IMG/VR virus record: IMGVR_UViG_3300013093_004149
Span: 1 to 33,766 of that record
Length of the DNA: 33,766 bases
Strand: one strand, 5' to 3'
Source: a virus
Part shown: in pieces, positions 4,771 through 31,499 of the stretch
Layout of the letters: every line of letters begins with the position of its first letter
Position numbering within the stretch: position 1 is the first letter of the stretch
Made by a program: the position numbers and the translations under genes
The notes under the pieces: generated by a model
Database searches by the model: none
The model's input: the letters and a program-made list of their open reading frames with translations, nothing else
What the model was told of the DNA's origin: nothing

Positions 4771-4792
4771 ACCCACATCATTTGTTCTAGAT

Positions 4793-4813
4793 CCTACGAT
4801 AAATACTCGTAGG
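4793..4813 (+). promoter_or_regulatory. late-promoter octamer in the loop of an inverted repeat, heading the curli operon
   Basis: GATAAATA (4798-4805), 7 of 8 to TATAAATA, is enclosed by the perfect 7-bp inverted repeat CCTACGA / TCGTAGG. A second imperfect hairpin, AGAGTC-TTGAC-GATTCT, lies in the leader at about 4816-4833. These are the only promoter signals seen for the curli operon. Confidence 0.55.
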
Positions 4814-4865
4814 AGCAGAGTCTTGACGATTCTACTACCATTATAATAATAAAAGAGGTAGAGTG

Positions 4866-5348
4866 ATGCGTTTTATCAAACAAGCTAGTATAGCTATTCT
4901 AACAGCAACCGCATTTTCAGCGGTAGCTACCCCAATCAATGATTTTTCTTTTAAGAGCCCAGCATTTAACGGTAACGGATATGGAACCTACGTTCTTACT
5001 GTTGAAAACGAACAATATACTAGACAACAAGCCGTATTAGCGGCATTACAGTCTGCTCAACAAGCGGCCGCTAGTGCCGCACAAAATCAACCTATTAATC
5101 AATTCTTAACTAACTTAGAGTCACGCATATACGCCCAGGTTAGTCAAAACGTAGCCACACAGATGTTTGCTGGTGGTAGCTGTAGCGGCGGAACTAGCGC
5201 CTGTAGTGGTAGTATTAACTTTCAAGGAAACACATTGAGTTGGATTAAAGATCCAACAAATCCAACTAATATTTTGCTTACTGTCAGAGATAATGTAGGC
5301 AACACAACGGTAATTAATGTACCGTTAAACTCGTTTAATATGAACTAA
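4866..5348 (+). CDS. csgF: CsgF, curli secretion/nucleation factor
   Basis: A signal peptide (MRFIKQASIAILTATAFSAVA) is followed by TPINDFSFKSPAFNGN, which matches the conserved mature N-terminus of CsgF (FxFxNPxFGGNP). In E. coli this segment inserts into the CsgG pore as a second constriction and helps tether the nucleator. The C-terminal beta region (GNTLSWIKDPTNP to VINVPLNSFN) fits the CsgF fold. At 160 residues it is about 20 longer than E. coli CsgF, with an Ala/Gln-rich helix and a two-cysteine loop (GGSCSGGTSACSG) near residues 101-117. I chose ATG 4866 over GTG 4863 because AGAGG (4853-4857) is better spaced. The csgG start follows 1 base after the stop. Confidence 0.9.
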   Translation: MRFIKQASIAILTATAFSAVATPINDFSFKSPAFNGNGYGTYVLTVENEQYTRQQAVLAALQSAQQAAASAAQNQPINQFLTNLESRIYAQVSQNVATQMFAGGSCSGGTSACSGSINFQGNTLSWIKDPTNPTNILLTVRDNVGNTTVINVPLNSFNMN

Positions 5349-5349
5349 G

Positions 5350-6555
5350 ATGAAAAGATTATTACTTTTATCTTCAATTATTTTAGTGTTATCCGGTTGT
5401 GCTGTTACCCAAAAGGCAGGGCAGTTGGCAGGGATCGAGCACGAACCAAAGGTAGCTGAAAATAAGTTACAAAAAGAGTTTGACGCAGTACCACCGCCGG
5501 CAGGACCAAAGCTAAGTGTAGCAGTCTATAACTTTGCTGATAAGACCGGACAGCGTAAGCCTACTCCGGGAGTGGCAAGTTTTAGTACAGCAGTTACACA
5601 GGGTGCTGATGTATTTTTAATTAAGGCCTTACAAGATGTTGGTAATGGTCGTTGGTTTGATGTAGTTGAACGTGGCAATATTGATGCCTTAACCAAGGAA
5701 CGACTAATCATCAAACAGATGCGAGAAGCATATGAAGGTAAAGATGCTAAACCGTTAATGCCAATGCAGTTTGCTGGTATTATATTTGAAGGTGGTATCA
5801 TTGGTTATGATACAGGATTAGAGTCAGGCGGAGCCGCTTACAGATTTTTAGGTATTGGTCCACAGACACAGTATAGTAAGGATATTGTTACAGTTAGCCT
5901 ACGTGCTATCAGTGTTAACACAGGTAAGATATTGGCGGCTGTAACCGTAACTAAAATCATTTACTCAACAGCAGACTCTGTTGCTATCTTAAAGAGTATT
6001 GATCCGGGGGGTGGTATATTAAATCAAGTGTTTGCTAATAACACAGGAAGTACTAGTGCCACAGCAGGTATATTTGAATTTGAATCTGGTTTAACTATCA
6101 ATGAAGCAAGTACACTAGCTGTTAAAGCGGCTGTGGAAGCGGCAGTAGTAGAAATGATTCGAGAAGGTGAACGCAAGGGTGTATGGGAGTTTCGTAAACC
6201 AGCACCATTGCTAGTACAACAGCCAACAGTGGTACAGCCAGTAGCAGTTGCACCTAAAGCGGAAGAAGTTAAAAAAGAAGTAGAAGTAAAAAAGGAAGAA
6301 CCTAAAGTAGAAGTAAAAAAAGAAGAACCCAAGAATACAACTCAGTACCTAAACGAAACAGCATACTTGTATGCCAAGCCAGATGAAAGTGTTCAAAAAC
6401 GCTGGCAACTGGTTAAAGGTACTCGGTTAGAAGTTATACCTTATCCAACCGGCTGGTATTTTGTAGACGATGGTCAAGGTCATAGGGGGTATGTAAAAGC
6501 GAGTAGTTTAGTAGCATCACCAATGGAGAAGTCGGGGCCAGAGGTCAAGAAGTAA
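5350..6555 (+). CDS. csgG: CsgG, curli outer-membrane secretion pore, with C-terminal SH3-like extension
   Basis: A lipoprotein signal ends in LSGC with C17 as the lipidated cysteine. Residues about 45-290 match CsgG: SVAVYNFADKTGQ, FSTAVTQGADVFLIKAL, RWFDVVERGNIDALTKER, EGGIIGYDTGLESGG and YRFLGIGPQTQY. CsgG forms a nonameric 36-strand outer-membrane channel for curlin export. At the channel constriction, E. coli Y51/N55/F56 correspond to T72/S77/F78 with one extra residue, so the gate chemistry differs. After the usual end (about 285) there is a Pro/Val then Lys/Glu linker with a duplicated VEVKKEEPK unit. An SH3b-like domain (about 333-390, YLNETAYLYAKPDES, RLEVIPYPTGWYFV, GYVKASSLV) follows and would face the periplasm. 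Confidence 0.93.
   Translation: MKRLLLLSSIILVLSGCAVTQKAGQLAGIEHEPKVAENKLQKEFDAVPPPAGPKLSVAVYNFADKTGQRKPTPGVASFSTAVTQGADVFLIKALQDVGNGRWFDVVERGNIDALTKERLIIKQMREAYEGKDAKPLMPMQFAGIIFEGGIIGYDTGLESGGAAYRFLGIGPQTQYSKDIVTVSLRAISVNTGKILAAVTVTKIIYSTADSVAILKSIDPGGGILNQVFANNTGSTSATAGIFEFESGLTINEASTLAVKAAVEAAVVEMIREGERKGVWEFRKPAPLLVQQPTVVQPVAVAPKAEEVKKEVEVKKEEPKVEVKKEEPKNTTQYLNETAYLYAKPDESVQKRWQLVKGTRLEVIPYPTGWYFVDDGQGHRGYVKASSLVASPMEKSGPEVKK
6280..6333 (+). repeat. 27-base tandem repeat in csgG linker (2 copies)
   Basis: Two adjacent copies (6280-6306 and 6307-6333) each encode VEVKKEEPK and differ at a few positions. They form the charged linker between the CsgG core and the SH3-like domain. Confidence 0.8.
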
Positions 6556-6585
6556 TAAAGGTCATTGACCAAGGAATGAAGTAAA

Positions 6586-7470
6586 ATGAAAACAAGACTA
6601 GCTAAAATAATAACAACAATGCTAGCCGTTGCGATGTGTGTAGGTGTCAATGCTGCCGATAACAGCATATACATCGATCAATCAGGTAGTGGAGCAACAG
6701 TCAACGTAACGCAGAACGGTTTTGGTAACGTTGTAAGAGGTGTTCAGCCAATACAAGGTGGGGACGATAATACCGTCGCGGCTAAACTTAATGGCGATAA
6801 CGCATTGGTCAGTATTAACCAAGTTGGTAACCAAAATAAGTTAGATGTTAGCATGGTAGGAACTACACTAGGTGGAGGTTCGGTACCAACAGTAAACTAT
6901 AGCGTACAGGGTAATAGTGCTCGCGCTATATTAGATCTTAACAGCGACGGACAAGGTACATTTGCCAGTAGCTCAGTTGATATAACACAGGTAGGTAACA
7001 ACGCACAAGCCTTAGTTAAAATGACTGGCGGAAATAACAGCCTAAGTGTTAATACAGCTGGTGGTGATAGCAACTCAGTAACAGCTAATATATCCGGCGA
7101 TGCTAATACAACAAGAATTAGTTTAAGTGGTGGCGGCAATAATAACGCAACAGTAACACAGCAAGGCACAGGTAGTAATGCAATTGGTATCAATTCCAGT
7201 GGCGTTAACAATGCTTATACTATAAACCAAAATGGCAGTAACAATACCGCTAGCATAGGTGGTTATGCTGGATCGGGCAGTAGCATGGTTGGTAACGATA
7301 ACGTAGTTGGTATTACACAAGGTGGTATTGGAAATACCGTAGCATTAGGTATGACTGGTAGCAGTAACCAAGTGTCGATTACCCAGTCAACAACAGCTGA
7401 CGCTAACACCGCTAACTTAAAAATTAACGGTAGTAGTAATACTGTGAATATAACACAGAATAATCACTAA
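6586..7470 (+). CDS. curlin-repeat protein (CsgA/CsgB-like), first copy
   Basis: This 294-residue protein has a signal peptide (MKTRLAKIITTMLAVAMCVGVNA). The mature part consists of Asn/Gly/Gln/Ser-rich curlin-type repeats, where units such as SIYIDQSGSGATVNVTQNG, VSINQVGNQNKL, VDITQVGNNAQ, YTINQNGSNNTA, VGITQGGIGNTV and VSITQS recur about every 20 residues. This is the S-x5-Q-x-G-x-x-N-x-x-x-x-x-Q pattern that stacks into the cross-beta amyloid of curli. The protein is about twice as long as E. coli CsgA. It begins with SIYIDQ, like the second curlin at 8750. Whether it acts as major subunit or nucleator is undecided. The AAGGA near 6570 is the likely ribosome binding site. Confidence 0.85.
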   Translation: MKTRLAKIITTMLAVAMCVGVNAADNSIYIDQSGSGATVNVTQNGFGNVVRGVQPIQGGDDNTVAAKLNGDNALVSINQVGNQNKLDVSMVGTTLGGGSVPTVNYSVQGNSARAILDLNSDGQGTFASSSVDITQVGNNAQALVKMTGGNNSLSVNTAGGDSNSVTANISGDANTTRISLSGGGNNNATVTQQGTGSNAIGINSSGVNNAYTINQNGSNNTASIGGYAGSGSSMVGNDNVVGITQGGIGNTVALGMTGSSNQVSITQSTTADANTANLKINGSSNTVNITQNNH

Positions 7471-7471
7471 T

Positions 7472-7648
7472 ATGGTAGACTTACGCTTCCTACAAATGAT
7501 GTATCAACAATGGAGCGACGGTCAAACTAATATTGCGTCAAGGTGGATAGATTTCATTGAGCTGGCCAGTCGTCATACTGGTCTAGCTCAAGATCAATTA
7601 ATGCGAGAGTTACAGAAATGTTATTGGTTCGAACACAAAGGAGACTAA
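7472..7648 (+). CDS. small hypothetical protein (58 aa) inside the curli operon
   Basis: The ATG is 1 base after the curlin stop. The product, starting MVDLRFLQMMYQQWSDGQ, is helical and lacks a signal peptide, so it would be cytoplasmic. It contains WIDFIELASRHTGLAQDQL and ends WFEHKGD. Its last codons carry the AAAGGAG (7637-7643) that could serve the start at 7650 or 7654. It overlaps the longer possible FecR start by 31 bases. No family recognised. Confidence 0.6.
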   Translation: MVDLRFLQMMYQQWSDGQTNIASRWIDFIELASRHTGLAQDQLMRELQKCYWFEHKGD

Positions 7649-8748
7649 TATGGATGGTAGGACTATTCGTACTCTGGCTGAGTATATCACAGAGCTCAAA
7701 CGCCGCGATCGGGACTATAACGGAACAGTTGAACAGCCCAGCTTCGATACAACGGTCGAAGACGACACTAACTGGGACCAAGGGCGTCGGGGTGGAGATG
7801 GACGACGCAGTGAAAACGACGCAGGGTAAAGTTGGTATTACATTTGCAGATGATACAAAGGTACAGGTAAATGAAAACTCACGTTTGGTCATTGACGACT
7901 TTGTCTATGACCCTAAAGCAAAAACTGGTAAACTTGCCCTTAACATGGCTAGCGGCACAGTTAGATACGCATCAGGGGCGATTGCTCATAACAATCCTAA
8001 TAAGGTGGCTATCAACACTCCTACTGCTACCATTGCTGTTCGCGGTACTGATTTTACTGCTACTGTTGACGAACTTGGCGCAAGTACAATAATCTTATTA
8101 CCTAGTTGTCCCAACGGATTTGCTGATGTTAAACGTGATTGTAAAACAGGTATCATTGATGTTATTACTGATGCTGGCACCGTTACATTAGATCAGGCAT
8201 TTCAAGCAACTAAAGTAGAGTCACGTAGTCAACCCCCAACTAAACCTGTAACAATTAATCTTAGTCTTGATGCTATGAATAATCTGTTGATCTTGACTCC
8301 TCCCCCAGAGTTAAAGCGAGCACAGCAAGAATCTAGTACAAACAAGGCAAGTTTATTAACACAAGATTTTCTTAAAGAAGCAGACTTGGGCAACGTACTT
8401 GCCGACCAACAACGACAAATATTTCAAAATCGTTTAGCACAAAACTTTTTAGATCAGGATTTTTTGGCCAATATTCTTACAATGTTGAATCAAGAACTAC
8501 AGGCCGAGCTACAATTATTAAACACAACCAACAATGGTTTATTGCCAGATTATCGTGCCAGCACTGGTATCAAGGCCTATGTAGATGATTCATCTGTTAC
8601 ACTATATCGCGATGATGGTAGCAACAAAGAAAGCGTTACAGTGAATCGTAACGAAACAGCTACAGTTTATATGACGCAGGGTCAGTATACATTTAAGAAT
8701 CGTATTAACTCTGGTAGTGGCACAACAATAACAGTAAAGCAGAACTAA
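7618..8748 (+). CDS. secreted FecR-domain protein
   Basis: The FecR-type domain spans about residues 30-150. It shows a GTITEQLNSPASIQR-like opening, the DDAVKTTQGKVGITFADDTKVQVNE block, LNMASGTVRYASG, and the INTPTATIAVRGTDFTATVD motif typical of FecR domains. A Gln/Leu/Asp-rich helical part (about 225-310) and a beta-type C-terminus follow. Start 7618 gives a signal peptide with a positive n-region (RTQRR) and a hydrophobic core ending SSNAA. Start 7654 sits 10 bases after AAAGGAG but lacks positive charge, so the start is undecided. FecR proteins usually sense or stabilise envelope systems; such domains are often encoded beside CHASE2 cyclases, and one is at 13734. Lying between two curlins, it may be a curli cofactor. 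Confidence 0.88.
   Translation: MLLVRTQRRLIWMVGLFVLWLSISQSSNAAIGTITEQLNSPASIQRSKTTLTGTKGVGVEMDDAVKTTQGKVGITFADDTKVQVNENSRLVIDDFVYDPKAKTGKLALNMASGTVRYASGAIAHNNPNKVAINTPTATIAVRGTDFTATVDELGASTIILLPSCPNGFADVKRDCKTGIIDVITDAGTVTLDQAFQATKVESRSQPPTKPVTINLSLDAMNNLLILTPPPELKRAQQESSTNKASLLTQDFLKEADLGNVLADQQRQIFQNRLAQNFLDQDFLANILTMLNQELQAELQLLNTTNNGLLPDYRASTGIKAYVDDSSVTLYRDDGSNKESVTVNRNETATVYMTQGQYTFKNRINSGSGTTITVKQN
7650..7829 (+). CDS. possible overlapping ORF (59 aa) within fecR
   Basis: This frame starts 6 bases after AAAGGAG (7637-7643), the best-placed ribosome binding site here. It encodes a hydrophilic product beginning MDGRTIRTLAEYITELKR, with an acidic middle and an RRGGDGRR segment. It lies wholly inside the fecR N-terminal region in another frame. 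It may be an overprinted gene, or the start may be bypassed in favour of 7654. No homologue is recognised. Confidence 0.25.
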   Translation: MDGRTIRTLAEYITELKRRDRDYNGTVEQPSFDTTVEDDTNWDQGRRGGDGRRSENDAG

Positions 8749-8749
8749 A

Positions 8750-9562
8750 ATGAAAATTATTGTTATTGTGTTAATTTTAATTGCTGGACTTGAGTATTGC
8801 TCACGTCCTCACGCTCAAACGGTATCTATTGTGGGAGTTGATGCTGGACTAGCTATAGCAAATTATCAAAACAATCCTAGCATTTATATAGATCAAGTTG
8901 GTAGCAGTAATCACGTGATCATACAACAAAATGGAGTTAATAGTGTAGGCGGTGTTAGTCAACAATCAATGCCCGTACAAGGCCAGGGTAACACAGTAAA
9001 GATACGTCAAGGCGATCCCAGTAATCCTGTTGGATCGAGTGCCATTAATGCCGCAGTCTATGGAGACTACAATTACTTAGGACTTAACCAAGGTATTACA
9101 TTAGCCAATCAAACTAACGGACAGGATACAGGTCAACATTATCAATCAGTCTCAGTAACTGGCACAGGTAACCAAGTTAATACAGAACAAACTAATACAG
9201 GTGCTGGTGCCCATTACCTATCGACTGCGGTAACTGGAAACTATAATACAGTTAATGCAAGTCAAACGGACAATACTGCCAAGAGTGCGTCGGTTACAGT
9301 ACAAGGTGACCTTAACAACGTACTAACTAGCCAATCGGGCACAGGTGCTCATAGTTTGGCTGTTAACCTATTGGGTAACAGTAACTCAGCTACAGTTAAT
9401 CAATCAGGATCAACTGCTAATTCGGCTAGTATTTCAATTACCAATGCTGGCGGTCCAGGTAGTGTAAATTTAACACAAACAGGTGGTCAAAATTATTACA
9501 TCAATACAGTTTGTGTACAAGCCGGAGGATGTACTCCTATTACTGTAAGGCAAGGTAACTAG
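8750..9562 (+). CDS. curlin-repeat protein (CsgA/CsgB-like), second copy
   Basis: This 270-residue protein has an N-terminal hydrophobic export signal (MKIIVIVLILIAGLEY, then a probable cleavage after PHAQ). Its mature part carries curlin-like repeats: SIYIDQVGSSNHVIIQQNG, VQGQGNTVKIRQG, VTGTGNQVNTEQ, VTGNYNTVNASQ, VQGDLNNVLTSQSG, LLGNSNSATVNQSG and VNLTQTGG. It shares the opening SIYIDQ(S/V)GS with the first curlin but the repeats diverge, which fits a major/minor subunit pair. The C-terminus has a two-cysteine loop (CVQAGGC) followed by ITVRQG, which could cap the fibre or form a disulfide. It starts 1 base after the FecR stop and closes the secretion operon. Confidence 0.82.
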   Translation: MKIIVIVLILIAGLEYCSRPHAQTVSIVGVDAGLAIANYQNNPSIYIDQVGSSNHVIIQQNGVNSVGGVSQQSMPVQGQGNTVKIRQGDPSNPVGSSAINAAVYGDYNYLGLNQGITLANQTNGQDTGQHYQSVSVTGTGNQVNTEQTNTGAGAHYLSTAVTGNYNTVNASQTDNTAKSASVTVQGDLNNVLTSQSGTGAHSLAVNLLGNSNSATVNQSGSTANSASISITNAGGPGSVNLTQTGGQNYYINTVCVQAGGCTPITVRQGN

Positions 9563-9563
9563 T

Positions 9564-9758
9564 ATGATATCATTTACAGCAAAATACTTTAATCACGGTC
9601 GTAATGTATTGGACGAAGTTGGATTCTATGTACAAGAAATTGGTGGATATTTTGAAACTCACCGAGGATTTGTAGTTGAATTTTTTGTACCTGTAGAGTA
9701 TAGAGATTTTATTTTAATGAAGTACCCTTTCTTAGAAGAAGTAGAGTACGTATTATGA
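9564..9758 (+). CDS. small hypothetical protein (64 aa)
   Basis: The start lies 1 base after the second curlin stop. The product is rich in Phe, Tyr and Glu, with FTAKYFNHGRNVLDEVGFYV and VEFFVPVEYRDFILMKYPFLEE-like segments split by a Gly. There is no signal peptide and no metal motif, so it is probably a small cytoplasmic alpha/beta protein. It is joined by ATGA overlap to the next gene. Function unknown. Confidence 0.65.
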   Translation: MISFTAKYFNHGRNVLDEVGFYVQEIGGYFETHRGFVVEFFVPVEYRDFILMKYPFLEEVEYVL

Positions 9759-9940
9759 TAAAAGGATTGGACGTCCCGCCAATTTGTGGAGTTGACGGTT
9801 GTAAAGAACTTTGCCAACTTGTATCTAAAGTAGGCGATGCTAAAACGTATATGAAAACTTGTCGCCGGCACAACTATATGGATTTGCCCGAAGAACAAGA
9901 AAAACTCGATACATTTTGGCCACCTGTAAACAATAAATAG
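9755..9940 (+). CDS. small Cys/His protein, possible zinc binder (61 aa)
   Basis: The gene overlaps the previous stop (ATGA). The protein contains CGVDGCKELC (residues 11-20) and CRRH (about 36-39), a spacing that would allow a small zinc finger. It also has a basic middle (YMKTCRRHNYMD) and an acidic tail. Its last codons and TAG stop form the AATAAATA element used as a possible late promoter for the next operon. No family name can be given. Confidence 0.65.
   Translation: MIKGLDVPPICGVDGCKELCQLVSKVGDAKTYMKTCRRHNYMDLPEEQEKLDTFWPPVNNK
9932..9939 (+). promoter_or_regulatory. late-promoter-like octamer AATAAATA
   Basis: 7 of 8 to TATAAATA, 99 bases before the barrel protein start. It overlaps the stop of the preceding gene, where Asn-Lys-stop codons can give this string by chance. 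Confidence 0.4.
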
Positions 9941-10001
9941 CTTTGTAAGTTTGAGATTTACTGTCGCTCCCAGCGGGTTCAAAAGCAGTACCGTGCGTTT
10001 C

Positions 10002-10035
10002 CGAGATCAAGAAAAATAATAATAAAAGGATCTCG
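10002..10035 (+). promoter_or_regulatory. inverted repeat flanking the ribosome binding site of the barrel gene
   Basis: CGAGATC (10002-10008) pairs perfectly with GATCTCG (10029-10035). The 20-base A-rich loop holds most of the AAAAGG ribosome binding site, only a few bases before the ATG. A closed stem would present the site in a loop, or occlude its last G, so translation could depend on folding. Confidence 0.45.
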
Positions 10036-10038
10036 ACA

Positions 10039-12033
10039 ATGAAGTTTTTCACCAAGGCCTTAGTGGCCATTTCAGTGTGTCTAAGCCTATCGGCACAGGC
10101 ACAAAGTCTACCAGCAGGTAGCATAGGCTCAGTTCAGGGTAACACAGCCAATCAGTTTAGTAATTATTCATTTAATTTTACCGCTGCCAGTTCGGGTAGC
10201 GATTATGTAGGTTTTGCCTTCCGCCAAGACCCAGCTTACTGGACATTCCAAAATCCGTCAGTGACCACAGGCGGTGGTAGCAACTTGCTGACCAACGGTA
10301 GTCTAAGCGCAGGCGGTCCTGTGCAGGTCACAGTCAACGGTGGCACACAAACAATCAATGCTCCAGCAAACTGGGGTGTGTGGTATCAGAATGGTACTTA
10401 CCCGGCTGCCGCAGGCTCTTGGTCAACAGGTCAATGGTATGATGGTGCTGTCGGCTCGTTTGATGGTATCTATCAGGGTTTCACTGTAACCGGCGGTGTA
10501 ACATACACTATTACATTCACTGCTATGAGTAACAACGCAGTAGATAATAATGCTATTCAGCTAGGTGTTTATGCTGGTCCTTGTACTAGCTTAACACTGG
10601 CCGCTAGTCAGTGCGTACCAAACCTGTCAAGTATGGGCATTATAGCACAACCAAACCAAACAGTTAATGCGGGTAACCCAAGTGCTCCGCCTGTACCACC
10701 AAGTGCTCCAAGTACTCCAACTGTAGTAAGCACAGCCAATGGAACTCCTACAGTAGTTAGTACAACAGCAGATGGCGTAACTGTAGCAACTACAGCAAGC
10801 ACACGTGGCACCACAGCAACAGCAGTAGCTACTACACTTGGCACAACCGCAGTGGCCACAGCAGTTACTGATAGCCGTGCCAGTCAAACAGCACAGAACT
10901 TAAACATTAATCATAATATAACCGTTACAAGTACAACACCGGTAACAACAGTAACTACAAGTACAACACCAATTACTACAGTTACAACTTACACAACACC
11001 ACGTACAGTAACAACAGTAACAACTCCAACATACGTTGATACATACAGCGACGGTAGCACACAAACACGTACAGGTACTCCGGTAACTACAGCTTCAACT
11101 ACTAACATTGTTACAACATCAACCGCAGTGGTTAATGAAGTTCTAACAGCAACAGCACACAGCAACAATGTTGATGTAGCAAGTACTGATACCGGTTACT
11201 CAACACGTATTGACCAATTTGCCAAACTTGGAACAGCAAACAACCGTATGAATGAATCCTTAGACAGTGATCCATATACACGTATTCGTGTTGAAGATGG
11301 TCAAATTCATCAACGTGATTTAAGTGGTCGTGACTATAACTTTTATGTTACAGGTACAGGCCTACAATCAAATACTAAAGATACTTACAACTATTCAGGT
11401 AGCGTATTTGGTCTAGGTATTGAAAAATTAGTTAGCCCTACAGCATTGGTTGGTATCCAATACAATCACGGTACTGTAAACTTGTCAGGTGATCAATCTG
11501 CTGGATCATTAACTAAAGAATCAGCTGGTGTTTATGTAGTTAAGAGTTTTGAAAACGATGTTATGGTTAAAGGTGACATTGGCTATGCTCAAAACACTTA
11601 TAACACAGCACACAGTTTACCAGCCCTAGGTTACAATAATACTGGATCCGCTAGCGGTACTGATAGTTGGGCACAGATCAAAGTTTACTCACCAGCAGTT
11701 AAAGGCTTCCGTGCTTTTGTAGGCGGACGCAGTGAGTCAAATCAAATTGATGCGGTAAAAGAAACTGGTCCAGCATTAACAGCAATGACGTATGCGGCAA
11801 CTACACAAGTTAATAACTCAGGTATTGCTGGTCTACGTTATGATCATAACTTTAATAAGAACTGGGCTGTGGGTGCCGAAGTTGGACATTATACAAATAA
11901 TACAACTGCCAGTGCCATTAACTTTACCTATCATGATGATAAGAACAGTAGCGTATTGTTAAAGATTGCTCGTCAGGATCAATATGGACAAGCAGTTAAT
12001 ACAGCATCATTACAGGCAAGAGTTAACTTTTAA
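10039..12033 (+). CDS. secreted Thr-rich surface protein with C-terminal outer-membrane beta-barrel
   Basis: The 664-residue protein starts with a clear signal peptide (MKFFTKALVAISVCLSLSAQA). Residues about 25-195 form a beta-rich globular domain (SNYSFNFTAASSGSDYVGFAF to YAGPC). A long Pro- then Thr/Val-rich linker (about 210-370) contains TTPVTTVTTSTTPITTV-like repeats. Residues about 395-664 have the alternating amphipathic strands of an autotransporter-type barrel and end ASLQARVNF, with the terminal Phe used as an outer-membrane insertion signal. This suggests an adhesin displayed on the infected cell surface with the N-terminal part as passenger. A transition to autotransporter type V secretion is inferred, not proven. 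It follows the curli operon under its own late element and ends before a terminator. Confidence 0.82.
   Translation: MKFFTKALVAISVCLSLSAQAQSLPAGSIGSVQGNTANQFSNYSFNFTAASSGSDYVGFAFRQDPAYWTFQNPSVTTGGGSNLLTNGSLSAGGPVQVTVNGGTQTINAPANWGVWYQNGTYPAAAGSWSTGQWYDGAVGSFDGIYQGFTVTGGVTYTITFTAMSNNAVDNNAIQLGVYAGPCTSLTLAASQCVPNLSSMGIIAQPNQTVNAGNPSAPPVPPSAPSTPTVVSTANGTPTVVSTTADGVTVATTASTRGTTATAVATTLGTTAVATAVTDSRASQTAQNLNINHNITVTSTTPVTTVTTSTTPITTVTTYTTPRTVTTVTTPTYVDTYSDGSTQTRTGTPVTTASTTNIVTTSTAVVNEVLTATAHSNNVDVASTDTGYSTRIDQFAKLGTANNRMNESLDSDPYTRIRVEDGQIHQRDLSGRDYNFYVTGTGLQSNTKDTYNYSGSVFGLGIEKLVSPTALVGIQYNHGTVNLSGDQSAGSLTKESAGVYVVKSFENDVMVKGDIGYAQNTYNTAHSLPALGYNNTGSASGTDSWAQIKVYSPAVKGFRAFVGGRSESNQIDAVKETGPALTAMTYAATTQVNNSGIAGLRYDHNFNKNWAVGAEVGHYTNNTTASAINFTYHDDKNSSVLLKIARQDQYGQAVNTASLQARVNF
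10921..11032 (+). repeat. Thr/Val low-complexity repeat in the barrel protein linker
   Basis: Recurring ACAACACC and GTAACAACAGTAACTAC blocks encode TTP(V/I)TTVTT-type units. They form an extended, possibly glycosylated stalk between the passenger domain and the barrel. Confidence 0.65.
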
Positions 12034-12035
12034 TT

Positions 12036-12043
12036 GCTAAATA
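12036..12043 (+). promoter_or_regulatory. late-promoter variant GCTAAATA
   Basis: The same GCTAAATA variant occurs at the expected place before minus-strand genes at 17064 and 26730. Here it is followed by the terminator at 12092, so any transcript would have to read through to reach the ORF at 12135. Confidence 0.3.
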
Positions 12044-12091
12044 AAAGTGCGGGCACAAGATAAGGTGTCGCTGAAATCCGTAACCAGTGCT

Positions 12092-12114
12092 AAGGGCCAC
12101 TAGATGGTCCTTTT
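12092..12114 (+). terminator. intrinsic terminator after the barrel gene
   Basis: AAGGGCCA (12092-12099), loop CTAGA and TGGTCCTT (12105-12112) form an 8-bp stem with one G-U pair. The stem runs into a short T tract (CCTTTTC). Confidence 0.55.
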
Positions 12115-12134
12115 CTACCTAAAAGGAGTAAGCT

Positions 12135-12293
12135 ATGAAACAAACGAAATTAGTACGTAAAGTGTATCAGGCTTGCTTCGACCACGATGCCGAGAAACAG
12201 CTTGAACTTCGCAAGAAGGAATATGCCAAAATCTTGAAACACAAGGCCGAGGGCAAACCATTTACAACTAAATGGACAGTAGTACAGGTTTAA
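12135..12293 (+). CDS. small basic phage protein (52 aa)
   Basis: This ORF has a strong AAAAGGAG (12120-12127) 7 bases before the ATG. The product starts [18 protein letters not shown], continues with the charged helix [21 protein letters not shown] and ends TKWTVVQV. Similar short proteins beginning with KLVRKVYxACF are, from memory, frequent in marine T4-like phages, but their role is unknown. It has no neighbour within 40 bases on either side. Confidence 0.7.
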
Positions 12294-12324
12294 CAAAACT
12301 GTAATACTTCAAGCACAGTTGAGC

Positions 12325-12332
12325 GGTAAATA
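12325..12332 (+). promoter_or_regulatory. late-promoter variant GGTAAATA
   Basis: It keeps the TAAATA core, 9 bases before the ATG at 12342. The same variant lies before the minus-strand operon at 19684. Confidence 0.35.
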
Positions 12333-12341
12333 CATAGTAGT

Positions 12342-12992
12342 ATGAAGCATCAAATAGCATTGTTTATCAATCATCCCGAATGCAGTAAAGATTGTTGTGA
12401 TGCTATGACCCTAGCATTAAGCCCACATTTTGACGTCAAACTATTTGATCGAACCCAAGTTAATGAATCTACACTGGCAGGAGTTGACATCGTTGCTTTC
12501 CCCGGTGGCATTGGCGATTCAGATAGTTACGATAGGTTTTTCAGACGCCGTGCGGAAAATACGATTGCAGACTATGTAGCTAACGGTGGGCACTACTTAG
12601 GTATCTGTATGGGTGCTTATTGGGCAGGATCTCAGTACTTTGATATACTAGATGGTGTAGATGCTGTGCAGTATATTCGTCGTCCCAATGCTGATGTGCG
12701 TAGGAGTTATGGCACCACAGCAAAAGTAACCTGGCGTGGTACTACTGAAGATATGTATTTCTACGATGGTTGTGCTCTAATAGGTGATGAAACTAAATTC
12801 ACTACTGTAGCCCGATATGCCAACGGCGACCCAATGGCCATATTTCAAGGGCGTGTAGGTATAATTGGATGCCACCCCGAAAGCCAACTATATTGGTATC
12901 AAAAGCCCTGGCAGTACTTAGAGCCAAAATGGCACAATCAACATCATTGGAATCTTTTATTAGAGTTTGCTGACCAGCTTGTAGTCCGATAA
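12342..12992 (+). CDS. class-I glutamine-amidotransferase-like protein (BPL_N type)
   Basis: The 216-residue protein has the flavodoxin-like GATase1 fold. VDIVAFPGGIGDSDSYD is near residue 48, the nucleophile elbow GICMGAYWAG has C89, and H178 with E180 lies in GCHPESQ, which completes a Cys-His-Glu triad. The GGIGDSDSYDRFF form and lack of a synthetase partner are closest to the biotin-protein-ligase N-terminal-like (BPL_N) group rather than to a nucleotide or amino-acid amidotransferase. The substrate is unknown; these proteins may hydrolyse amide or peptide bonds. Placed between surface proteins, it could act in envelope modification, but this is inference. Confidence 0.75.
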   Translation: MKHQIALFINHPECSKDCCDAMTLALSPHFDVKLFDRTQVNESTLAGVDIVAFPGGIGDSDSYDRFFRRRAENTIADYVANGGHYLGICMGAYWAGSQYFDILDGVDAVQYIRRPNADVRRSYGTTAKVTWRGTTEDMYFYDGCALIGDETKFTTVARYANGDPMAIFQGRVGIIGCHPESQLYWYQKPWQYLEPKWHNQHHWNLLLEFADQLVVR

Positions 12993-12995
12993 ATA
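12988..12995 (+). promoter_or_regulatory. late-promoter octamer GATAAATA
   Basis: 7 of 8 to TATAAATA, 16 bases before the LamG gene. It overlaps the previous stop, and the ACGGAGA ribosome binding site follows. Confidence 0.5.
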
Positions 12996-13011
12996 TTAAA
13001 ACGGAGACAAT

Positions 13012-13737
13012 ATGGCGATAAACATTGGCAATGGCGTAAATATTGGGGGTGGCATCAGTATAGATGTTAATGTGCCAACACCTAGTATTTTGACATCGGG
13101 TTTAGTAATGAACCTGGCTACAGCTCCTGTTAGTGCTACCAATGGTACAGCCTGGACCGACACATCAGGTAGCGGAAATAACGCTACCTTAGTTGGAATT
13201 GGCACATTAGCCTACACCGGTAGTTATGGTGGTGGTATTACTACTACCGGTGGGTCATATATTTCCACTGGTTATAATTTTTCTAGTAATACCTTTACAA
13301 TTAGTATAGCCGCATCATTTAATCCAGCATCTTATTGGTCAACTATATGGGCCGATGAAAGCTGGAGTGCCGGTAAAGGATACCTTTGTTTCTTTGGTAG
13401 TGCCGGTGTTATTAGTGTCGGATCTCCAAGCGGAGGAGCAAGCTATAGCATAACAGGTTATACTAGTGTGGCCATATGGGATTTTGTAATAAGCGGTACC
13501 AGTGTAACAGTTTTTAAGAATGGAACATCATTGGGAACCAGCACATTTGTGGCCCCCGGTGGCGGTTATTCTACTACTAATTTATATTTTGGTGCTCGCC
13601 ATACTAACGGTGGTACGGGCTATACAGATACTATTCCTGCTACATTTTATAGTATGCGAGTTTACAATCTAGCATTGACTAGTACACAAGTAACACAAAA
13701 TTATTCTGTCTTAAAAGGCACATACGGATTACCATGA
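13012..13737 (+). CDS. LamG/concanavalin A-like lectin-fold protein, probable fibre or surface protein
   Basis: The 241-residue protein opens with a Gly/Ile repeat (INIGNGVNIGGGISIDVNV) typical of phage fibre and tail-tip proteins. Residues about 28-235 read as a LamG-like jelly roll: WTDTSGSGNNATLVG, FTISIAASFNP, WDFVISGTSVTVFKNGT, YFGARHTNGGTG and FYSMRVYNLALTSTQVTQNY. The last is the classic LamG final strand with its RVYNxALTxxQV signature. Such domains bind carbohydrate. There is no signal peptide, so a virion role is plausible. The stop overlaps the cyclase start (ATGA), so the two are translationally coupled, which is odd for a structural protein next to a signalling enzyme. Confidence 0.8.
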   Translation: MAINIGNGVNIGGGISIDVNVPTPSILTSGLVMNLATAPVSATNGTAWTDTSGSGNNATLVGIGTLAYTGSYGGGITTTGGSYISTGYNFSSNTFTISIAASFNPASYWSTIWADESWSAGKGYLCFFGSAGVISVGSPSGGASYSITGYTSVAIWDFVISGTSVTVFKNGTSLGTSTFVAPGGGYSTTNLYFGARHTNGGTGYTDTIPATFYSMRVYNLALTSTQVTQNYSVLKGTYGLP

Positions 13738-15788
13738 TGATCAAAAAAATCTTAACCAGTCCTTGGACTGCTCTTTTAACCTTAGCTTTAGTATTAAGCG
13801 TTCGTATCGCTGACCCTACATTTGTTGAATCGGTTCGCTTACGTTATTTTGATACTCTAGTTACAAGTAAAGCACCAGAAGCAATCGGTGTAAGTGTAGT
13901 AAACATTGACGAGAAAGCGTTAGAACGATATGGCCAGTTTCCTTTTAGCCGCGACACATACGGTAACATTATTCGGGATCTTTACAGACGTAATGCTGGT
14001 CTCGTGGTGTTTAATATCCTTACTCCTGATAAAGACAGGATGGGAAAAGATGCGGAATACATCCAAGCACTAAAACAATTTCCAACTATACTGCCTAGTA
14101 TCGGTAGTACACAAACTCGTAATAGCCCAAGAGCACCAGGCTCGGTAATTATTGGTCCATTTGGTCTTGATACGTTTGTAACTTATCCAGGACTTATTGC
14201 CAACATACCCGGTGTTGAACAAGCGGCTGCCGGTGTTGGTATTACAAACACACTACCTGAAGTTGATGGTGTTGTACGTCGTATGCCACTAGTTGTTGCT
14301 TACGATGGTAAACTGTATCCAAGCCTGGCAATGGAGACGCTACGTGTTGCTGGCGCAGACTCTACTGTACAGATCAAAGTAAATGAGAATGGTGTTGAAA
14401 AGATGCGTATTCCAAAGTTTGGTCCTGTTACGACAGATAGTTTATCACGCATTTGGATTGACTGGTCATTAAAGCCAGATGTTTATAGTTTAACTGACTT
14501 GCCTAAAGATTTTGACGGCGAGATCGTTATTGTAGGTGTAAGTGCTCAGGGTCTAAGTAACCCTGTTGCTACAAGTTCAGGCGAAATGTTGCCACAAGAT
14601 TTACAAGCGGCTGTACTGGGTACTGTAATTGCTAACAAAGATCGTGCTGTAATTACACGTCCAGATTGGGCAGAAGGCGCAGAAGTATTAGGTCTACTTG
14701 CCATAGGTGTTTTATTAATTTTCTTATCAAGGTGGACTTATGTTGGTATTATTTCAAGCTGTGTTATTATCGGTGGTAGTATTCCTCTTTCTAATTATTT
14801 GTATAGATCTCATTCTTGGCTATTCGATGTTTCTGCTTTGGTTGGTGGTCTTGTTCTTGTGGCTCTCCATACTTACGGGGTAAAGTTTATAAGTGAGTTC
14901 TTACAGAAGCAGGCTATCAAGAAACAGTTTGCCGGCTACTGTAGTAAAGAAGTTGTAGAGATGCTACAGAAAGATCCGGAGTTAATTAAACGTGGTGTAC
15001 GTAAAGATGTAAGTGTTATGTTTAGTGACCTGCGTGGGTTTACTCCAATCGGTGAACACTACGGCGATGATGTAGCTGGGCTTACAAAATATATGAATGG
15101 CTATATGGATGCCATCAGCAAGCCAATGCTGGATAATCGAGGTATGGTTATTAAGTATGTAGGTGATGCAAGTATGCATATTCACGGTGCTCCTATTGAT
15201 GATACTCGTCACGCACACACTATCATCCAGGTTGGCTTAGATATGCTAGATGCAGTTGATGAGTATACTAAACAGATGGAAGCCCAAGGCTTACCTCCTG
15301 CCGCAATGGGTTGGGGTTGTAACACAGGTATTGGCTTTATTGGCGAAATGGGGTCAACCCAACGACACAGCTATGATATCTTAGGTGATATGGTTTCAAC
15401 AGCGGCACGTCTTGAAGCACGTTGTAAGGCCTATGGTGTGTTAAACATTGTTGGTGCTGAAACATACAACAGAACTAAAGATGACTTCTTCTACTTGCTG
15501 TTAGATAACCTACAACCTAAGGGCAAAACAGTAGCTGACTTGATCTACACAGTTCTACGCACACGTGGTGTTGACTATACAAAAGATCGTGAACAGCACG
15601 ACAAAATGCATTCTCTATACCGAGCCAAGAAGTTTGATGAGGCTGCCGCGATGTGTAAAAAACTAGCAGGTAATTTTGGTGGGCAGATGGATAAGTATTA
15701 CAAGATTTGGATTGAACGTTGCGACTTTATGAAGCAACAAGATTTACCAGATAATTGGAATGGCGAATTCATAGCCCACGAGAAATGA
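13734..15788 (+). CDS. CHASE2-domain class III adenylate/guanylate cyclase
   Basis: This 684-residue inner-membrane protein has one N-terminal helix (about 8-25) and an extracytoplasmic CHASE2 sensor (about 30-300, VSVVNIDEKALERYGQFPFSR at its start). Three membrane helices (about 316-385), a cytoplasmic class III cyclase domain (about 425-600) and a short TPR-like tail (about 620-665) follow. Metal-binding D432 (FSDLRGF) and D478 (YVGDASM) are present, as are K474 and D548, which match the adenine-selecting Lys and Asp, and R559. The transition-state Asn is S555 (GDMVSTAARLE). Most features point to conversion of ATP to cAMP, but the Asn to Ser change leaves activity to be tested. CHASE2 cyclases are bacterial signal proteins; here one lies in apparent phage DNA. 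Confidence 0.93.
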   Translation: MMIKKILTSPWTALLTLALVLSVRIADPTFVESVRLRYFDTLVTSKAPEAIGVSVVNIDEKALERYGQFPFSRDTYGNIIRDLYRRNAGLVVFNILTPDKDRMGKDAEYIQALKQFPTILPSIGSTQTRNSPRAPGSVIIGPFGLDTFVTYPGLIANIPGVEQAAAGVGITNTLPEVDGVVRRMPLVVAYDGKLYPSLAMETLRVAGADSTVQIKVNENGVEKMRIPKFGPVTTDSLSRIWIDWSLKPDVYSLTDLPKDFDGEIVIVGVSAQGLSNPVATSSGEMLPQDLQAAVLGTVIANKDRAVITRPDWAEGAEVLGLLAIGVLLIFLSRWTYVGIISSCVIIGGSIPLSNYLYRSHSWLFDVSALVGGLVLVALHTYGVKFISEFLQKQAIKKQFAGYCSKEVVEMLQKDPELIKRGVRKDVSVMFSDLRGFTPIGEHYGDDVAGLTKYMNGYMDAISKPMLDNRGMVIKYVGDASMHIHGAPIDDTRHAHTIIQVGLDMLDAVDEYTKQMEAQGLPPAAMGWGCNTGIGFIGEMGSTQRHSYDILGDMVSTAARLEARCKAYGVLNIVGAETYNRTKDDFFYLLLDNLQPKGKTVADLIYTVLRTRGVDYTKDREQHDKMHSLYRAKKFDEAAAMCKKLAGNFGGQMDKYYKIWIERCDFMKQQDLPDNWNGEFIAHEK

Positions 15789-20931: not shown

Positions 20932-22149
20932 ATGGAAGTAGGATTTATTGGAGTTGGCAAATTAGGAATGGCCTGTGCTGAAACAATGGCAAGCCGTCAC
21001 AATGTTGTTGGGTATGATATTTATCCACGCGAAAGTAGCAAAATTAAAATTGCCACTCGATTAGAAGATGCTGTCTTAGGCAAAGAACTAGTATTCATTG
21101 CTGTACAAACACCACACGATCCCATTTACGGCGGTGATCAACCAATCACACACCTAAAGAACAAAGACTTTGACTATACCATAGTCAACGATGTATTAAA
21201 GCAAGTAAACGAAGTAGCAACCCCCAATCAATTAGTAGTATTAATCTCCACAGTTCTGCCCGGCACAACACGTAGAGAACTGAAGAACAACATTACCAAC
21301 GCACGTTTCATTTACAATCCATACTTAATCGCCATGGGTAGTGTAGAGTGGGACATGGTTAACCCAGAGATGGTTATCATTGGTACAGAGGACGGAAGCG
21401 AGACTGGCGATGCTCGCTTATTGACTGACTTCTATAGGACAATAATGGAAAACAATCCACGTTACGTTGTTGGTACGTGGGACGAAGCTGAATGTATTAA
21501 AGTGTTTTACAATACATTCATCTCGGCAAAAATTGGTCTTGTTAATATGATTCAAGACGTTGCTATTAAACAAGGCAACATCGATGTAGACGTAGTAACA
21601 GATGCGCTGGCTAAGTCTACAATGCGTATTATGGGACCAAAGTATATGACAGCAGGTATGGGAGATGCAGGGCCTTGTCATCCACGTGATAACATTGCCT
21701 TGCGTTACCTAGCAGAAAACCTAGACTTAGGTTACGATATATTTGATACAATTATGAAAGCACGTGAGGTACAGGCACGTAATATGGCACGTTATATTTA
21801 CGACCATAGAGAAGGACTTCCTGTTTATATTCACGGCAAAGCCTATAAGCCTAACGTAGCATACTTAGAAGGTAGTTATAGTTTGCTAGTAGGTTACTAT
21901 TTAAAACAATGGGGTATTGATCCTGTCTACATCGATCCTTTAACAGAAGAATCTGTTCCTGAGTCGGTGATGGGCTGTGTATTGTTAGCGCACAACCAAC
22001 AGGTAACATATGGATACGCTGGTGTAACCGACAATCAAACATTGTATTGCCGTATTGATCCTGGTAGTATTATCATTGACCCTTGGCGCAAGTATCCGCA
22101 GAACGGAAATATTCGAGTTATACACTATGGCAATACCCGCGGTAGTTAA
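20932..22149 (+). CDS. UDP-glucose/GDP-mannose 6-dehydrogenase family protein
   Basis: The 405-residue protein has a Rossmann NAD site at its start (GVGKLG, residues 7-12) and the family motifs AVQTP, STVLPGTTR (106-114) and GDAGPCHPRD. The last holds catalytic C249, and a later KAYKPN corresponds to the family's AFKPNTDD. It would oxidise a nucleotide sugar to the uronic acid with two NAD+, feeding capsule or LPS sugars. The tail YGYAGVTDNQTLYCRIDPG-IIDPW resembles the UDP-binding C-terminal domain. At 405 residues it is close to the usual length (about 390-450). It is first in an operon with an oxygenase and an amidinotransferase. Which nucleotide sugar it uses is not visible. Confidence 0.88.
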   Translation: MEVGFIGVGKLGMACAETMASRHNVVGYDIYPRESSKIKIATRLEDAVLGKELVFIAVQTPHDPIYGGDQPITHLKNKDFDYTIVNDVLKQVNEVATPNQLVVLISTVLPGTTRRELKNNITNARFIYNPYLIAMGSVEWDMVNPEMVIIGTEDGSETGDARLLTDFYRTIMENNPRYVVGTWDEAECIKVFYNTFISAKIGLVNMIQDVAIKQGNIDVDVVTDALAKSTMRIMGPKYMTAGMGDAGPCHPRDNIALRYLAENLDLGYDIFDTIMKAREVQARNMARYIYDHREGLPVYIHGKAYKPNVAYLEGSYSLLVGYYLKQWGIDPVYIDPLTEESVPESVMGCVLLAHNQQVTYGYAGVTDNQTLYCRIDPGSIIIDPWRKYPQNGNIRVIHYGNTRGS

Positions 22150-30908: not shown

Positions 30909-31499
30909 ATGCCTAATTTTGTACCTACCGTCTTGGAAAAGACATCTAATGGCGAACGTGCTTACGACATTTATAGTCGATTGCTCAAAGACCGTATTGT
31001 AATGCTAGATACGGATGTTAATGAACATTCTGCTAGTTTACTAGTAGCTCAATTACTATTTTTAGAAAGCGAAGACCCCAATGCTGATATATTATTCTAC
31101 ATTAATAGCCCCGGCGGTTCAGTTACAGCAGGCATGGCTATCTACGATACAATGCAGTTTATCAAACCCGATGTTAGTACCATTGTTATGGGTCAGGCCT
31201 GCAGTATGGGAAGCCTTCTTAGCACAGCCGGAGCAAAAGGTAAGCGATTAATGCTACCACACGCTCGCCATATGATTCACCAACCGTCGGGTGGCGCACG
31301 TGGACAAGCAACAGATATTCAAATCCAGGCGCAAGAAATTCTTAAAATGAAACGTTATCTAACTGAAATCTATGTCAAACATAATTCAGCGGGTAAAACA
31401 TTTGATGAGTTTGCCGCTGATATGGAACGTGATTTCTTTATGAGTGCCGAAGAAGCACTAGCATACGGACTTGTAGACGAGATCATTACACGTCGATAA
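30909..31499 (+). CDS. clpP: ClpP, ATP-dependent protease proteolytic subunit
   Basis: The 196-residue protein is full length and carries the family's serine-protease triad: S99 (GQACSMGS), H124 (MIHQP) and D175 (ERDFFM). It also has the [18 protein letters not shown] oxyanion loop. The N-terminus [30 protein letters not shown] fits the mature axial-loop region without a propeptide. ClpP forms tetradecameric chambers that work with ClpA or ClpX. No Clp ATPase is seen in the window, so it would use host unfoldases, perhaps with the phage ClpS (3123). Possible roles are host protein turnover or maturation of phage proteins. It has its own sigma70-type promoter, so may be early. Confidence 0.96.

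Follow-up and report, generated by a model that had tools for sequence, protein, structure and literature searches.

The closest described counterparts of the locus analysed here are the curli (type VIII secretion) genes of pelagimyophage HTVC008M, of Methylophilales phage Melnitz and of HTVC023P-type pelagiphages (PMC7029224, PMC9004378, PMC9599517), in which csgF, csgG, a curlin gene, a FecR gene, a second curlin gene and a CHASE2/adenylate cyclase gene follow one another in this order and CsgE is absent. The presence of csgF and csgG in pelagimyophages was reported in 2020 (PMC7029224), Melnitz was then described together with the proposal of a pore that times lysis (PMC9004378), and the curlins, FecR and adenylate cyclase were identified, and the missing CsgE noted, in a further study (PMC9599517). 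Among cellular systems, the Caulobacter holdfast anchor HfaABD, in which the CsgG-like HfaB is thought to export the curlin-like HfaA and the adhesin HfaD to the surface (PMC6707917), is likened to the phage module by description, and differs from it in being cellular and in anchoring a polysaccharide holdfast. The curli system of E. coli (csgBAC/csgDEFG; CsgG structures 4uv3 and 6si7) shares CsgG, CsgF, Sec signals and curlin repeats with the module described below. This module is found in the IMG/VR virus record IMGVR_UViG_3300013093_004149, a viral stretch of 33,766 bases with 40.5% G+C that was analysed at its full length and is called the window hereafter.

Six open reading frames (ORFs) of the window, csgF, csgG, curlin-1, a 58-amino-acid (aa) ORF, fecR and curlin-2, occupy 4863-9562 in head-to-tail order, overlapping or separated by 1-31 nt, and a gene for a CHASE2 plus class III nucleotide cyclase lies farther downstream (Table 1). 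Pfam matches above the curated cut-offs were obtained for four of the six (csgF, csgG, curlin-1 and fecR). A previous interpretation of the window from its letters (the sequence-only reading) had proposed csgF, csgG, two curlin genes and a FecR gene in one packed run, forming a reduced curli cassette in phage DNA; both proposals are borne out by the ORFs, by profile searches of the five proteins, and, for curlin-2, by repeat patterns and family membership. It had overlooked the CHASE2-cyclase beyond the right border of the run, the SH3b domain on CsgG and the 58-aa ORF, counterparts of which (14 distinct sequences of 56-72 aa) occupy the same place in the window and 13 other loci. Unnamed PHROGs families exist for csgF, csgG, fecR and the cyclase (3e-47 to 7e-180), so that phage-borne families of these genes are already in databases. 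The ratio of nonsynonymous to synonymous substitution rates (dN/dS) is 0.04-0.34 across all module genes in pairwise comparisons of those pairs with unsaturated dS, the top value being that of curlin-2 with swapped heads; judged from its coding sequences, every part of the module is maintained as protein by purifying selection. The identity of the locus as a phage type VIII secretion/FecR/CHASE2-cyclase module can be regarded as certain for practical purposes. Matches of CsgF to streptolysin S (0.0098) and to the designed protein 7ong were judged to be due to chance.

Table 1. Module genes and neighbouring features of the window, with the matches that identify them
Feature	Positions	Strand	Description and evidence
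Inverted repeat TCCTACGA-TAAATAC-TCGTAGGA	4792-4814	+	Upstream of csgF; 8-bp stem; fold z -2.65
csgF	4863-5348	+	GTG start; secreted partner of CsgG pore; Pfam CsgF 7.8e-7, 29.7 bits (cut-off 25.8); phrog_35372 3.4e-47
csgG	5350-6555	+	Outer-membrane lipoprotein pore; lipobox LSGC, C17; C-terminal extension; Pfam CsgG 6.2e-40, 137 bits; phrog_20175 4.4e-87
CsgG K/E/P-rich linker	6205-6336	+	Residues 286-329; predicted disordered (pLDDT <60)
CsgG SH3b-like domain	6337-6513	+	Residues 330-388; all-beta; pLDDT 93-96; Pfam SH3_3 1.5e-4, below cut-off
curlin-1	6586-7470	+	Signal peptide and curlin repeats; Pfam Curlin_rpt 4.4e-14, 52.6 bits; solved curlin structure PDB 8c50 1.2e-14
58-aa ORF	7472-7648	+	Between curlin-1 and fecR; conserved in relatives
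fecR	7618-8748	+	Signal peptide; periplasmic FecR domain 7810-8088; coiled/beta C-terminal part; Pfam FecR 4.9e-11, 43.4 bits; phrog_37870 1.7e-126
curlin-2	8750-9562	+	Degenerate curlin, short form without lectin-type head; core patterns and family matches
Variable cargo slot	9564-13737	+	Between curlin-2 and cyclase; two small ORFs and three larger genes; Pfam
Secreted 664-aa protein	10039-12033	+	T/S-rich middle; outer-membrane-barrel-like C-terminus ending in Phe (by eye)
BPL_N/GATase-like	12342-12992	+	Pfam
LamG/ConA-lectin-like	13012-13737	+	Pfam; overlaps cyclase start (ATGA)
CHASE2 + class III nucleotide cyclase	13734-15788	+	Pfam CHASE2 9.9e-37, Guanylate_cyc 1.3e-15; phrog_35576 7.4e-180

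We searched IMG/VR with CsgG alone, which returned 80 loci. Curlin-1 and fecR follow csgG in all 44 distinct loci with at least 3.5 kb downstream, the cyclase is also present in all 31 with at least 8 kb, and the cultured phages HTVC008M and Melnitz show the identical order of module genes. The comparison with related phage genomes that had been suggested thus recovers the same module, and the full set with two curlins and FecR, taken at first to be unusual, is instead the rule. The suspicion that the contig might be a chimera of bacterial and phage DNA, voiced by the earlier reader alone, is excluded to within a negligible chance by dozens of independent viral contigs, and by cultured phages, that have the same module and the same left-hand phage genes (Hsp20 and others, recurring upstream). 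The earlier reader had already pointed to csgG/csgF-type genes in aquatic myophages, and because the module was published between 2020 and 2022 in the three studies cited above, the finding as first written was already known. New here are the detailed anatomy of the module, the swappable sugar-binding heads of its relatives, the wall-binding CsgG tail and a bacterial copy of the operon, together with a TAAATA core upstream of csgF and the pairing of FecR and CHASE2 genes in bacterial loci without curli. For the working of this widespread module we lean, by a little, towards an adhesive amyloid fibre expressed late on the infected cell, with feedback through the cyclase.

Curlin-1 also matches the NCBIfam CsgB model (8.9e-10), below its cut-off. 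Curlin-2 alone has no match in Pfam or NCBIfam; it contains seven G..N.x...Q/N cores compared with 0.5 in shuffled sequences (0 of 2000 shuffles reach seven), and Curlin_rpt is matched by 12 of the 20 proteins in its family, those of HTVC008M and Melnitz included. At least 120 residues precede the first curlin motif in 25 of 52 distinct complete second-position genes, and in seven loci Pfam recognises a head in this N-terminal part: PA14 in L004 (= HTVC008M), L014, L016, L054 and L061, GLEYA in L014, and F5/8 type C in L069 and L077. Within each of the groups L014/L016 and L056/L062/L065, csgG, curlin-1 and the cyclase are 96-99% identical, whereas identity in curlin-2 is mostly 20-60% over the N-terminal half and 75-100% over the curlin repeats. 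As far as aligned sequences can tell, this pattern is the signature of binding-head exchange on a constant shaft, and that curlins carry glycan-binding heads which change between near-identical modules suggests adhesion as the selected function. The curlins would leave the cell through the CsgG pore and polymerise as amyloid on its surface, where a second curlin with an exchangeable glycan-binding head, as in the relatives, would turn the fibre into an adhesin by which the infected cell, or debris from it, becomes attached to other cells or to particles; the payoff may be that the next hosts are kept near or that receptors are masked. Head swapping also resembles what is seen in receptor-binding proteins, and the fibres or heads might thus join or bind the virion and not the cell, in line with the late-type promoter core and with a LamG-like neighbour whose C-terminus resembles virion structural families (phrog_8510, 1.6e-5); we rate this as most improbable, since signal peptides, and in CsgG the lipobox, assign the products to the envelope of the host. 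Between the otherwise near-identical modules L056 and L065, identity falls to 48-79% in the third quarter of fecR, as if this stretch had been exchanged too.

The CsgG of the window has 401 residues and matches E. coli CsgG (PDB 3x2r, 1.7e-38), and its AlphaFold model shows the fold of 4uv2/4uv3 (Foldseek 1.4e-16 with 4uv2), although the mean predicted local distance difference test score (pLDDT) of the whole chain is only 67, the core being modelled less well than the tail domain. Among 57 distinct complete phage CsgGs, 24, including that of the window, carry tails homologous to its linker and SH3b-like domain, with SH3_4 matches reaching 1.4e-8 at best among the relatives, and five more of the 57 carry a different tail of 60 aa or longer; the best 80 CsgG loci of bacteria have no SH3 tail of the phage type. 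In the E. coli structures, CsgG has its C-terminus in the periplasm, and the likeliest role of the SH3b tail is therefore to tether the pore to peptidoglycan, which predicts a cell-wall-anchored pore. CsgG subunits would accordingly be exported by Sec and lipidated before forming an outer-membrane pore held to the wall by their tails and capped by CsgF. A possible bacterial counterpart of the SH3b tail is the long tail of the CsgG of L164, the end of which looks by eye like a peptidoglycan-binding SPOR domain. Compared with the modules of the HTVC008M/Melnitz type, the window CsgG shows 42% identity across 68% of its length and bears a tail that the CsgGs of HTVC008M and Melnitz (278-280 aa) lack, additional genes amounting to 4.2 kb separate curlin-2 from the cyclase, no histidine kinase is seen upstream in the window, and its relatives are large and only distantly T4-like.

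In comparison with E. coli curli, the window adds FecR, the cyclase and the SH3b tail, has other constriction residues in CsgG, and shows no detected CsgE or CsgC. The sequence-only reading had already noted the absence of these two proteins, and we confirm that CsgE (PF10627) and CsgC (PF10610) have no match in the window or in 19 related contigs of up to 265 kb, in a search that detected the E. coli CsgE control. CsgC is an amyloid inhibitor that occurs in some lineages only. CsgE enhances curli secretion and is not strictly needed (PMC7029224), and CsgD is typically absent outside Gammaproteobacteria (PMC9599517). The missing CsgE gate and the late-type promoter core would also suit the proposal, made for Melnitz on structural grounds (PMC9004378; Buchholz et al. 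2022), that lysis is timed by CsgG/CsgF, which as a gated pore or pinholin would depolarise the envelope, fibres being secondary. The main premise of this idea, a lack of curlins, fails, because all 44 loci have them and purifying selection acts on them; moreover, CsgG resides in the outer membrane whereas holins act on the inner membrane, and the swapped heads on curlin-2 are left without explanation, all of which makes a lysis timer quite unlikely.

FecR and the cyclase are best considered together. The signal peptide of FecR is followed by the FecR domain with no anti-sigma-type Pfam match, and its AlphaFold model matches the cell-surface signalling domain of PupR (6ovk, E 4e-4); without the cytoplasmic anti-sigma part it therefore cannot work like E. 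coli FecR. The name FecR and the open pore left by the absence of CsgE underlie the suggestion (PMC9599517, PMC7029224) that CsgG is kept for the uptake of nutrients or iron compounds under FecR as iron-citrate regulator, a role that is very unlikely for a FecR with a signal peptide and no anti-sigma part, with neither FecI nor FecA among the window proteins scanned with Pfam, and that has no need for two curlins with exchangeable heads. A FecR gene lies within about 6 kb of the cyclase gene, and usually adjoins it, in 14 of the 20 alphaproteobacterial loci of the closest CHASE2-cyclases, all without curli genes; one further locus has a FecR match at 17 bits beside these 14 clear cases. Neighbourhood of this kind would be expected by chance in a few per cent of loci, by our own estimate assuming no more than about 10 FecR genes per genome. 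The same clustering of FecR with CHASE2-cyclases is known in Campylobacterota (PMC9239204). In S. meliloti, a form of CyaD1 deprived of CHASE2 is a constitutive source of cyclic AMP (cAMP) (PMC5498481), indicating that CHASE2 can restrain a cyclase. FecR and the CHASE2-cyclase thus look like a sensor pair added to the curli cassette, probably one that senses the envelope, with periplasmic FecR reporting envelope or assembly state to CHASE2, which would set the output of cAMP or a related nucleotide. The pairing in bacteria without curli gives FecR, regarded as an iron regulator, a new reading as the sensing partner in a cyclase pathway.

The window cyclase retains the metal-binding Asp residues D432 and D478, the ATP-type Lys/Asp pair K474 and D548, and the Arg R559. 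Two catalytic types occur among 40 phage cyclases, a minority in which the catalytic Asn is kept (e.g., FDYTCLGDGVNLASRLE) and a type with Ser instead (HSYDILGDMVSTAARLE), to which the window belongs. The module might be mainly a signalling device, in which FecR and the CHASE2-cyclase flood the host with cAMP and reprogram its metabolism or surface and the curli part is the sensed appendage. The cyclase is indeed present in 31 of 31 loci with room for it and the FecR-CHASE2 pairing exists alone in bacteria, but the curli genes precede this pair and are just as constant, and many phage cyclases, the window's included, have Ser at the position of the catalytic Asn, so we regard a primarily signalling role as unlikely.

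The timing of the fibre is suggested by the region ahead of csgF. A late-promoter-like element and a heading hairpin had been noticed there, and both hold up: the core GATAAATACT (4798-4807) sits in the loop of the inverted repeat of Table 1, and 48 of 63 distinct loci have TAAATA in the 130 nt preceding csgF, compared with 7.1% of random 130-nt segments of the same loci and with 6-24 of the 63 for permuted hexamers. The usual form of the element is near TTAAATACTAATA and stands typically 20-35 nt ahead of the start codon. It resembles the T4 late promoter, which is TATAAATACTATT. The exact TATAAATA was rejected as the late promoter, being present in 3 of 63 upstream regions, the enriched core being TAAATA; likewise, the hairpin was rejected as a conserved RNA element, since stems of at least 5 bp surround the core in only 14 of 63 loci and are partly a consequence of the consensus TTAGTTAAATACTAA. 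HTVC008M has the TAAATA element, and Melnitz has none at the corresponding place. The element may work as a late promoter, driving csgF, csgG, curlin-1, fecR and curlin-2 and, further on, the cyclase late in infection, as the conserved T4-late-type core predicts. Further TAAATAC cores in the window are at 413, 12327, 20479, 30344 and 32428, four of which shortly precede ORF starts (425, 12342, 30369 and 32438), which suggests further late-type promoters. Searches of the window found no Rfam family or tRNA.

Several observations weigh against the late adhesive fibre. The phage curlins are known from their genes alone; the curlin-2 of the window is a short form without a head, the LamG and barrel genes being mere neighbours; the constriction of CsgG differs (KPYPA-SNF in E. 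coli and KPTPGVASF in the window); and CsgE, the gate that raises curli output in E. coli, is missing from all the contigs searched. The late timing rests on the motif, because gp55 is undetected in G009, a 265,680-bp syntenic relative of the window. Ser (S555) replaces the transition-state Asn of class III cyclases in the window cyclase, and its activity is therefore unproven. Finally, Melnitz-infected cells showed no clumping in cytograms or transmission electron microscopy (PMC9004378), so that simple capture of sibling cells is unproven; binding of particles, debris or other species, or receptor masking, may apply instead. A more specific version of the adhesive fibre is offered tentatively and is rather doubtful as a whole: an amyloid fibre whose glycan-binding head is exchangeable would be exported through a CsgG pore tethered to the wall and displayed on the cells that the phage is killing, with the FecR-CHASE2 cyclase monitoring the fibre, and the head would be diversified by recombination like a receptor-binding protein, the phage thereby choosing what the dying cell sticks to.

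The best bacterial CsgG matches are mostly alphaproteobacterial, in line with the published studies. In Hyphomonas sp. TMED17 (L112, 9459-15482), csgF, csgG, one curlin gene (compared with two in the window), fecR and a CHASE2/cyclase gene form one run between ordinary bacterial genes of a 705-kb contig. L112 groups with phages and not with other bacteria in both the CsgG and cyclase trees, on long branches, and is the nearest bacterial relative in the CsgG tree; from these trees it may belong to the lineage that donated the module or have captured the module from a phage. FecR and the cyclase have been stated to lie outside bacterial curli operons (PMC9599517); contrary to this, the five-gene operon of L112 indicates that these partners are not exclusive to phages.

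The description of the phage as T4-like is true in a broad sense only. No T4 core gene (gp17, gp18, gp20, gp23, UvsX, gp41 or gp55) could be recognised among those of the window. G009, which has the csg module and most of the left-hand genes in common with the window, has T4-type homologues of HTVC008M genes, namely TerL/gp17 (32% over 505 aa), sheath gp18, UvsX, gp41, gp61 and UvsW at 23-39% identity, and also gp4 and gp15, but gp23, gp20 and gp55 are not recognised in its 265,680 bp. A candidate head maturation protease at 30909-31499 (phrog_94) was rejected as it is ClpP (PF00574, 1.6e-81), and it hence gives no evidence of a capsid module. The slot between curlin-2 and the cyclase ranges in relatives from -42 nt (an overlap) to about 4,500 nt. 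Its 664-aa secreted protein has no match in Pfam or PDB, and ORFs resembling it occur in L026, L054, L076 and L084. Elsewhere in the window, the gene at 20932-22149 is UDP-glucose dehydrogenase-like and 49% identical to its counterpart of that kind in HTVC008M, a possible source of surface-glycan change.

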